This document shows, one piece after another, positions 6,119 through 18,611 of a DNA stretch of 33,178 nt. Source of the stretch: Syntrophobacterales bacterium (GTDB lineage: Bacteria > Desulfobacterota > Desulfobaccia > Desulfobaccales > 0-14-0-80-60-11). Within the stretch, counting starts at the first letter, position 1, and each line of letters starts with the position of its first letter. Position numbers and translations under genes: made by a program. Below the pieces are notes generated by a model, which searched no databases, was not told the origin of the DNA, and was given only the letters and a program-made list of their open reading frames with translations. The stretch spans positions 1 through 33,178 of the forward strand of contig JAGVAH010000097.1 of assembly GCA_020060385.1 (NCBI GenBank). Direction: 5' to 3'.

Positions 6119-7753
6119 ATGAGTCTCAGGGCTAAGTTTTTTACTTTTATGGGGTTGACTCTCATAGGGTTAACCGTCTTTGCCGCAATTGCCTGGAATA
6201 CCCTGAACACCACCAAAGTCAACGGCCCCCTTTACCAGAAAATCGTGCAGGGAAAGGACCTGATTGCGGATATCCTGCCACCGCCTGAGTACATCATCGA
6301 AAGCTATTTCGTGCTCTTCCAGATGCTGGAGGAGACCGATGCCGGCAAACTGAAGGACCTGGCCCTCAAATCCAAAGCCTTGCGGGAAGAGTACGATAAG
6401 CGGCATGAATTCTGGCAGAAATCGCTGCCGGCAGGCACATTGAAGGAAACAATGGTAGTTAAATCGTACATCCCCGCCAAGAAATTCTATGAAATAAGAG
6501 ATACGGAAGTGATTCCCGCCCTCCTTAAGGGCGAGAAGGGGAAAGTCCAAAAAATCATGCGGGAGGTTCTGGCGCCCCTCTATCAGCAACACCGCATGGC
6601 CATCGATCAGGTGGTGGAGATGGCGGACAAGGGTCTTACGCACGATGAAAAGAATGCCGCTGAGATCATCAGGACCAGATTCATAATCTTGACAGGGTTG
6701 GGAGCATTGATCATCGTCGGCACCTTGCTCCTGGGAGGCCTGTATATCACCTTCGGCATTTTGAGGCCCATAAACCGGGCCACCTCGGCCATCGATCAGA
6801 GCACTGATCAAGTGGCCACCGCTTCAGCCCAGGTCTCTTCAACTTCCCAACAGCAAGCGGAAGGAGCCAGCGAACAGGCGGCGTCCATCGAGGAAGCCTC
6901 CTCATCTTTGGAGGAGATGGCCGCGAAGACCAAAGAGAATCTGGAGAAAGCCGTGCACGCCAATACCCTCATGGAGGGGACCTCCAAGGTGGTCAAGATC
7001 TCTTCGGAGTCGATGCATAAACTCGCCTCTTCCATGGCGGAGATCTCCAAGGCCTCCGAGGAAACCTCAAAGATCATCAAGACCATTGATGAAATTGCCT
7101 TCCAGACAAATCTCTTGGCCCTTAATGCCGCGGTGGAAGCGGCCAGGGCGGGTGAGGCCGGAGCAGGCTTTGCAGTGGTGGCCGATGAAGTGAGAAACCT
7201 GGCCATGAGAGCCGCGGAGGCGGCCAAAAATACTGCGGTCTTGATAGAAGGGACCGTAAACAAGGTAAAGGAAGGGTCGGAAGTAGTCCAGAAGACCTGC
7301 TCAGAATTCTCCCAGGTGGCAGCGGAAGTCTCCAAGGTGGAAGATCTGGTGGCGGAAATCACGGCTGGCTCCCAGGAGCAGGCTCAAGGGATTGAGCAGA
7401 TAAACCGGGCTATCCTCGAAATGAATAAAGTTGTGCAGCAATCTGCCGCCAGTTCGGAAGAAGCCGCTTCAGCTTCGGAGGAGATGTTCGCCCAAGCCGA
7501 GCAGATGAAAAGTTATGTAAAGGGATTGGTGGCTCTGATCGGTGGAAACAACCATGGGGGCAGCGCCGGGAGTCGGAAACCGGCAACTGAGGGCGGACCA
7601 AGTACCACTACCATGCAGGGCACCAAGAGCCTGGAGCCTTACGGGCATAACCAGGGCCGCTCCCGGAAATTGTTTGGCTTTAACGCAGCCAGGAATGAAG
7701 GGAGGGTCCAGGATCATAACCATGGGAAAGGGGGTGAATTTGAGGATTTCTAG
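6119..7753 (+). CDS. Methyl-accepting chemotaxis protein
   Basis: A 544-residue transmembrane chemoreceptor that should control CheA and hence flagellar rotation. Order: TM1 (about 6-27), a helical periplasmic sensor of about 155 residues, TM2 (about 187-213), then the cytoplasmic signalling coiled coil. The conserved hairpin tip is intact ([20 protein letters not shown] at 324-343, then [13 protein letters not shown] at 350-362). Only about 20 residues separate TM2 from the coiled coil, so a full HAMP domain seems absent or severely reduced. After residue 510 there is a Gly/Ser/Asn-rich tail with no CheR-tethering NWETF-type end. GGGAGGT lies about 10 bases before the ATG, and a strong terminator follows. 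The ligand is unknown; no che genes are adjacent. Confidence 0.95.
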
Positions 7754-16439: not shown

Positions 16440-16455
16440 TGTCAATAAATTGACA
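16440..16455. promoter_or_regulatory. Palindromic upstream activator site, FleQ-like
   Basis: TGTCAATAAATTGACA is a perfect 7+2+7 palindrome. Its core GTCAATAAATTGAC fits the FleQ consensus GTCaNTAAAtTGAC as I remember it. It is centred about 82 bases upstream of the sigma-54 GG element, a normal distance for an enhancer-binding protein. Confidence 0.65.
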
Positions 16456-16527
16456 AGTAGGCAAAACTTACCGCCGCAGCTGACGTCACCATTCAGAAAA
16501 GTCCTTGTAATTACTAATATTTTCTTA

Positions 16528-16543
16528 TGGCACTGATATTGCA
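16528..16543 (+). promoter_or_regulatory. Sigma-54 (RpoN) promoter
   Basis: TGGCACTGATATTGCA matches the -24/-12 consensus TGGCAC-N5-TTGCA at every defined base, with the GG and GC pairs 10 bases apart. Transcription would start near 16554, about 26 bases before the ATG at 16580. It should require an AAA+ enhancer-binding activator. Confidence 0.85.
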
Positions 16544-16579
16544 GACGATTAAGGGAAATTCCCCATAAGGAGATGTGGA

Positions 16580-16903
16580 ATGGAAATTTCCAGCCTTTAT
16601 CCCCAGCAGACAATGACGTTGGACTCGGGGGTGGATGACCGGGTTACGGTTGCCAACCAGGGAACGACAGAGGCCCAAAACGCGGAGAGCCAGACTGCTG
16701 TCGAAGAAGACCGGGTGGAATTGGTTACCACCCAGAACCTGGCTTCCCCACCCCCGGCAGAGGTGGATGTGGACCAGGCCCAGCAGCTCCTCCAGCAGGT
16801 GCAGCAGGATTGGGCCAGCTTCAGCCCCCAAGACCTGCGGGAGCTGTACCAATTTGACCGCCTGCGGGAAATCTGCGCCCAGGTGCAGTCCGTGCTGCTC
16901 TAA
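16580..16903 (+). CDS. Unknown small protein, first gene of the sigma-54 unit
   Basis: A 107-residue acidic protein of unknown function. Residues 1-60 are Ser/Thr/Gln/Glu-rich and look disordered (VDDRVTVANQGTTEAQNAES). The C-terminal part from about residue 62 (AEVDVDQAQQLLQQVQQDW) is predicted helical and ends in REICAQVQSVLL. The plan of a disordered start and a short helical C-terminus recalls FlgM-type anti-sigma factors and other small flagellar proteins. I see no diagnostic FlgM motif, so that remains a guess. AAGGAG lies about 8 bases before the ATG. It stands 26 bases after the predicted sigma-54 start site and 35 bases before the next gene. The promoter suggests a motility-linked or surface-linked role. 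Confidence 0.7.
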   Translation: MEISSLYPQQTMTLDSGVDDRVTVANQGTTEAQNAESQTAVEEDRVELVTTQNLASPPPAEVDVDQAQQLLQQVQQDWASFSPQDLRELYQFDRLREICAQVQSVLL

Positions 16904-16938
16904 AGTTCGCCGGGATTATTGCCGATTAAGAGGCCATC

Positions 16939-17373
16939 ATGAAGATAGAAGACCTGCTCACCCAAATCATAGCCCCGAAGACCCAGGAGGCCCAACCCGC
17001 CACCGGAGAGGCAAACTTTGCCCAACAGTTGCAGGAGGTCCTGGCCGCCCAAGAAATCACGGACCCCCAGGCCTCTGCAGCCCTGGGGAATTTGGCTGCC
17101 ATTACCCAGATAACCGAAGTCAGCAACTCTCCGGGCGAAGTGCTGGATGCGGTCCTCTCCCACCTGGACAGCTACCAGGAGGCCCTGGCCAACTCGGATC
17201 AACCTCTGAAAAAGATTGCCGCCCTGGTGCAGACCCTGGAGCAGGACAGCCAAAGGCTCCAGGCCCTGGCCCAGGCCCTGCCCGCTTCCTCTCCCTTGAA
17301 ACAGGTGATGGAGGAGGCCGCGGCCCTGGCTTATACGGAGAGCTTCAAGTTTAACCGGGGCGACTACGTCTAA
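16939..17373 (+). CDS. Unknown small helical protein, second gene of the sigma-54 unit
   Basis: A 144-residue acidic, Gln/Leu/Ala-rich protein, almost wholly helical and probably coiled-coil, with no membrane segment. It begins MKIEDLLTQII, has heptad-like stretches (residues 76-116) and ends in the distinctive KFNRGDYV. The size and helical character resemble small secretion or flagellar chaperones such as FlgN, but no homology can be claimed by eye. AAGAGG lies about 7 bases before the ATG. It follows the first gene by 35 bases and is closed by the strong terminator at 17407-17440, so the two form a complete two-gene transcription unit under the sigma-54 promoter. Confidence 0.7.
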   Translation: MKIEDLLTQIIAPKTQEAQPATGEANFAQQLQEVLAAQEITDPQASAALGNLAAITQITEVSNSPGEVLDAVLSHLDSYQEALANSDQPLKKIAALVQTLEQDSQRLQALAQALPASSPLKQVMEEAAALAYTESFKFNRGDYV

Positions 17374-17406
17374 TACCAGTCTGCCAAAAACCGGATATTG
17401 GCATCG

Positions 17407-17440
17407 TCGGGGCGAACCTTGGGTTCGCCCCGATTTATTT
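17407..17440 (+). terminator. Rho-independent terminator of the sigma-54 unit
   Basis: A perfect 12-bp stem (17407-17418 with 17422-17433), TTG loop, then TTTATTTT. Its GGGGCGAACC/GGTTCGCCCC arms share the core of the dispersed repeats at 4526-4588 and 18552-18611, so a repeat seems to have been recruited as a terminator. Confidence 0.85.
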
Positions 17441-18551: not shown

Positions 18552-18611
18552 CAGGGGCGAATCTTGTATTCGCCTAACAGCCTCAGGGCGAACACAAGGT
18601 TCGCCCCTACA
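18552..18611. repeat. Dispersed hairpin repeat (GGGCGAA family), copy 2
   Basis: Imperfect 60-bp palindrome starting CAGGGGCGAATCTTG and ending AGGTTCGCCCCTACA. It is related to 4526-4588 and fills the convergent gap between the HIT gene and pabC. Confidence 0.75.

Follow-up and report, generated by a model that had tools for sequence, protein, structure and literature searches.

FliX (PF10768) is a class II flagellar assembly regulator and the partner of FlbD in polarly flagellated Alphaproteobacteria such as Caulobacter. The Caulobacter protein binds FlbD, keeps it inactive ahead of early flagellar assembly and then switches it on, with no kinase activity involved (PMC3096577, PMC3930126, PMC7064773). 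FliX has been described from polarly flagellated Alphaproteobacteria, and the means by which it relays the state of assembly is not clear (PMC3096577, PMC7064773). In the Desulfobacterota, the FlbD homologue DVU1063 of Desulfovibrio vulgaris binds GGCA-xxxx-TGCC, a motif that its authors compared with the Caulobacter FlbD site CCCGGCA-xxxxx-TGCCGGG; the receiver of DVU1063 is atypical and phosphorylation is perhaps not needed (PMC3333781). For DVU2894, an FlrA/FleQ-like regulator of the same organism, the published motif is yGTCA-N6-TGACr, a copy of which precedes the DVU2894 gene itself (PMC4641369). None of the papers searched connects FliX with Desulfovibrio or the Deltaproteobacteria.

Here we describe a locus in a Syntrophobacterales genome that has sites of both motif types. 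The window analysed is a stretch of 33,178 nucleotides (contig JAGVAH010000097.1 of GenBank assembly GCA_020060385.1), in which a two-gene unit on the forward strand, at 16440-17434, is close to certain to be a flagellar sigma-54 operon. The best explanation of the unit as a whole, which we consider probable, is that it is driven by two activators, FlgR1 and FlgR2, and encodes a FliX-type protein, P2. The inverted repeat, promoter, two genes and terminator reported in the initial annotation are all in place. P1 (107 residues, 16580-16903) has a disordered N-terminus and a helical C-terminus and follows the ribosome-binding site AAGGAG at 16567-16572, which is kept across the genus. P2 (144 residues, 16939-17373, ending KFNRGDYV) follows AAGAGG at 16928-16933; good ribosome-binding sites had been claimed for both genes, which holds for P1, while that of P2 is weaker. 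The intrinsic terminator at 17406-17434, with a T-rich tail, was likewise recovered, with 13 pairs in the hairpin scan, a folding energy of -25.4 kcal/mol and a z of -4.9. Its hairpin GGGCGAAC...GTTCGCCC (17410-17430) resembles a dispersed genomic hairpin found at window 18586-18606 and at L117:803, and the terminator may thus derive from a repeat element.

The promoter TGGCACTGATATTGCA at 16528-16543 is the sole exact match of its kind within the window; TGGCAC-N5-TTGCA occurs once there, and TGGCAY-N5-TTGCW just 15 times in the 4.15-Mb genome. It has GG at -24 and GC at -12 with the spacing and conservation of a sigma-54 promoter, and in an alignment of 16 P1 upstream regions the -24/-12 element stands before all 16 P1-P2 operons, which upholds both the claim of sigma-54 control and the conservation expected of it at orthologues. 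Among 68 further, more distant P2 loci, 13 carry a sigma-54-like element (0.02 expected), 12 of them 46-54 bp before the P2 gene. These distant loci include Desulfovibrio- and Desulfomicrobium-type genomes, and for this reason the layout of the promoter region is old.

The best-conserved activator site of the operon was overlooked in the initial annotation. GGCAAAACTTACC at 16460-16472 follows the pattern GGCA-N5-T(G/A)CC, which is present in 16/16 P1 upstream regions and fits the published FlbD motif; the window copy reads TACC instead of TGCC. The distance from this site to the -24 element is 55 bp, a spacing shared by P2 homologues in Desulfovibrio; of the six distant P2 loci that combine a sigma-54-like element with GGCA-N5-TGCC, five have the GGCA site 54-56 bp upstream of that element. 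With a conserved dyad of the GGCA-N4/5-TGCC kind near a sigma-54 promoter, the window site has the form of an FlbD-type (ftr) site. The DVU1063 regulon is similar in having a nearly identical enhancer motif, the same promoter type and flagellar targets, and differs in its reported motif spacing of N4. Of 29 relatives, 13 carry at least one composite of FlbD-type site and sigma-54 promoter, and all 13 have P2. The 19 composite sites fall at the P1-P2 operon (13), before flgF-flgG (2), before a glycosyltransferase-like cluster (2) and inside a coding frame (2). Glycosyltransferase-like clusters with an FlbD-type site and a sigma-54 promoter are seen at L247 and L248 and are possibly concerned with flagellin glycosylation. 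A perfect GGCAAACTTTGCC dyad, which may or may not be functional, lies within the P2 coding sequence at 17010-17022; DVU1063 sites have also been reported downstream of promoters. On contig C91 (L117, 6434-6465), a pair of tandem GGCAA-N3-TTGCC dyads spaced by 19 bp stands ahead of an uncharacterised gene of 150 aa that has no obvious sigma-54 promoter.

Upstream of the FlbD-type site, at 16440-16455, lies the inverted repeat that had been called a perfect palindrome with a core fitting the FleQ consensus. It is a 7-2-7 repeat with perfect 7-bp arms; the AA spacer breaks the symmetry, giving two mismatches against its own reverse complement. Allowing up to three mismatches, the repeat has three matches in the window, a number reached by 0 of 100 window shuffles. 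Comparison with the literature bore out the fit: every position of GTCAATAAATTGAC agrees with GTCaNTAAAtTGAC, the FleQ consensus reported for P. aeruginosa (PMC8125075). On a genome scan, TGTCA-N6-TGACA occurs at four sites in 4.15 Mb, every one at a flagellar locus. One is the P1-P2 operon, two flank the FlgR1 gene on contig C172, and the fourth, on contig C51, lies about 100 bp upstream of the sigma-54 promoter of fliL-fliMNOPQR-flhBA-flhF-flhG-fliA, genes named here from their sequences. An estimate from base composition puts the copies of the dyad expected by chance at two or three in each genome, and the signal therefore lies in the positions of the dyads, not in their number. In related genomes, too, FlgR1 has a dyad on either side and is followed by a sigma-54 promoter TGGTA(T/C)-N5-TTGCT. 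In the window's genome, the dyad upstream of FlgR1 overlaps TTGACA-N17-TATAAG, which makes autoregulation of FlgR1 plausible.

At the operon itself, the 16 aligned upstream regions limit the perfect dyad to the window's own genome: the left half is kept in 6-7 members of the genus with a degenerate right half, and outside the genus the dyad was not seen at the aligned position. A FleQ/FlrA-type site is nevertheless supported, because the helix-turn-helix (HTH) of FlgR1 is FleQ-like and the DVU2894 motif is identical (PMC4641369). The activator site conserved at all 16 orthologues is the FlbD-type one.

FlgR1 is a flagellar sigma-54 activator of receiver-AAA-HTH architecture whose gene comes first in the flgBC-fliEFGHIJ cluster of contig C172. 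FleQ is the best match to its HTH among solved proteins (2.8e-5), including an RTTLxEKM recognition helix. The resemblance to FleQ/FlrA and DVU2894 extends to the dyad and to its position beside the regulator's own gene; unlike FleQ, whose receiver is degenerate, FlgR1 has an ordinary receiver with the phosphoacceptor Asp kept. A search of the genome for a FleQ receiver domain gave nothing convincing: the FleQ N-terminal domain PF06490 produced borderline hits near the cut-off, to ordinary receivers only, as it did in the E. coli and Caulobacter controls, and was rejected as a test for FleQ. The FlgR2 gene lies directly upstream of flgB. Its product has a degenerate receiver, recalling the non-canonical receiver of DVU1063, and an HTH (ISVRTLRNKL) close to that of an alphaproteobacterial FlbD (ISVRTMRNKI) whose gene sits between fliN and flhA; an FlbD-like sigma-54 activator thus accompanies P2 in the genome. 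On these likenesses we assign the TGTCA dyad to FlgR1, and the GGCA dyad to FlgR2, as their putative targets. The stretch between the two activator genes on contig C172 (L093, 5202-7047) encodes a small protein, probably with a signal peptide, and a TPR protein; both lie behind a conserved TGGTATGAGTCTTGCT promoter, and this pair recurs in related genomes.

The genes adjoining P1-P2 in the window are non-flagellar by sequence, and the motility link proposed in the initial annotation was borne out by gene content and neighbourhoods elsewhere. Relatives of P2 occur in 33 of 119 related genomes, with 215 family loci in one genome scan, and both P1 and P2 are almost confined to genomes with FliG. 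Within the order, 13 genomes have P2 and FliG, 3 P2 only, none FliG only and 13 neither (Fisher p 1e-5, shared ancestry ignored); presence and absence vary among genera of a single family, and of the three P2-only genomes, two have a completeness of 69-84%. At five loci in distant lineages the P2 gene adjoins FliL, FlgR1 and FlgR2, in some also flgB, and in several lineages P2 lies directly upstream of FlgR1-FlgR2-flgB; two further loci have it beside an FlgR1 orthologue, and six have it beside a short rod-like protein. That the operon is non-flagellar and the likeness of its dyad to a FleQ site a matter of chance is highly improbable. Such a reading could appeal to the loss of the perfect dyad in sibling genomes and to four P2-positive genomes in which FliG was not found, two of them less than 90% complete; the placement of four out of four genomic dyads at flagellar loci, the co-occurrence with FliG and the flagellar neighbourhoods of P2 genes in other genomes contradict it. 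A gene for a methyl-accepting chemotaxis protein, identified by sequence, lies at window 6119-7753, apart from the main flagellar contigs.

The nature of P2 emerges from its family. When 72 diverse relatives were scanned singly against Pfam and NCBIfam, matches to FliX far exceeded those to any other family, with 23 of the 72 hitting it in Pfam (best 1.1e-6) and a best value of 1.4e-6 in NCBIfam. One member exceeds the Pfam cut-off for FliX (29.2 bits vs 25), with others just below. The window P2 was not listed against Pfam FliX at E 10 or at E 1, and NCBIfam was likewise silent. A FliX-like function is probable, judged from the family members rather than from the window protein. A profile of the P2 family scores 25.6 against an annotated Erythrobacter FliX, the sole clear FliX in twelve alphaproteobacterial plasmids searched, compared with at most 21.2 for 150 shuffles and at most 24.0 for 88 real proteins; a search with the Erythrobacter protein gave no further usable FliX. 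The nearest decoy, at 24.0 and hence by a narrow margin, is FliE, which scores close to FliX because of a shared N-terminal motif. The profile alignment of P2 with FliX covers the C-terminal helical region, and several relatives align with the FliX profile start to start. In the structure model, the N-terminal half of P2 is disordered apart from one short helix, and a three-helix domain follows. A fold search gave no significant solved match, and the profile and fold matches in the PDB were rejected as helical bundles of a generic kind or coiled coils matched by chance. Invariant residues of the family include F27, E134 and R140-G141-D142.

Taken with the flagellar genomes in which it occurs, P2 thus resembles FliX in its length of about 140 residues, its conserved helical C-terminus and the presence of an FlbD-like sigma-54 activator. 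It differs in coming from another phylum, in the remoteness of the identity, in the P1 gene alongside and in a nearly invariant [NRQ]RGD[YF] end. The Erythrobacter FliX gene lies beside flgI and that of P2 does not, a matter of context and no strict requirement; P2 is encoded by a gene with its own sigma-54 promoter, whereas fliX of Caulobacter belongs to the early genes under CtrA control. On the sequence evidence, P2 is most likely a FliX-like regulator that signals assembly status to an FlbD-like activator.

P2 could instead be an exported or structural component of flagellar assembly, associated with the rod or the MS-ring and with a FliE-like N-terminus, for which P1 would serve as partner or chaperone. 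The MKI...F..xL motif that its N-terminus has in common with FliE, second in the profile test, and the short flagellar rod-like protein beside P2 in several lineages speak for such a role, which we nonetheless judge unlikely: matches to FliX outnumber those to every other family, the similarity to FliX spans the C-terminal helical region, and it is activator genes that adjoin P2 in several lineages. The proposal of the initial annotation, that P1 and P2 form an anti-sigma factor and chaperone pair of the FlgM/FlgN type, fared worse and is very unlikely. Both proteins are small, helical and encoded apart from the flagellar cluster, and FliA is encoded in the genome; FlgM and FlgN were nevertheless absent from the matches of the window proteins, from those of the 16 P1 orthologues and from the listed families of the 72 P2 sequences, and where P2 relatives match a family it is FliX, while P1 matches nothing.

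P1 is an orphan restricted to its order. It was found in 16 of the 119 related genomes, always shortly upstream of P2, and was not found outside the order; profile searches with all 16 orthologues gave no family match. Its structure model was of low confidence (pTM 0.26) and was set aside. The constant pairing suggests that, within this order, P1 probably serves P2 as an accessory.

The FliX-type reading of P2 implies the following course of events. Transcription would begin some 12 bp downstream of the -12 box and would require enhancer-binding proteins at 16440-16472, with FlgR1, through its FleQ/FlrA-like HTH, on the TGTCA-N6-TGACA dyad and FlgR2, with its FlbD-like HTH and degenerate receiver, on GGCA-N5-T(G/A)CC. 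P2, as a distant FliX-type regulator, would then act on the FlbD-like activator as FliX acts on FlbD, presumably by contact with FlgR2. Expressed from a promoter with an FlbD-type site, P2 would close a feedback loop. The operon structure, the conserved cis elements, the co-occurrence with FliG, the gene linkage and the remote similarity to FliX are read directly from genomes; the assignment of regulators to sites, the interaction of P2 with FlgR2, the switch and the role of P1 are what we infer from them.

FliX-type control has so far been described only in Alphaproteobacteria, and P2 would be a distant relative in a Desulfobacca-type bacterium. With some of its loci beside activator genes, the P2 family is a candidate controller of activators of the DVU1063 type, and its varied sequences are a resource for mapping where FliX and FlbD meet; proteins that are widespread but unnamed are thereby given a probable function. 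More tentatively, and with considerable reservation, one may envisage that the coupling of FlbD-type activators to flagellar assembly through FliX-type proteins is of ancient origin and common to Desulfobacterota and Alphaproteobacteria, and that the order of the window's genome gained P1 as a new, dedicated subunit, together with a transcriptional loop that places the FliX-like gene under both a FleQ-like and an FlbD-like activator. DVU1032, a reported target of DVU1063, is suspected to be an orthologue of P2.
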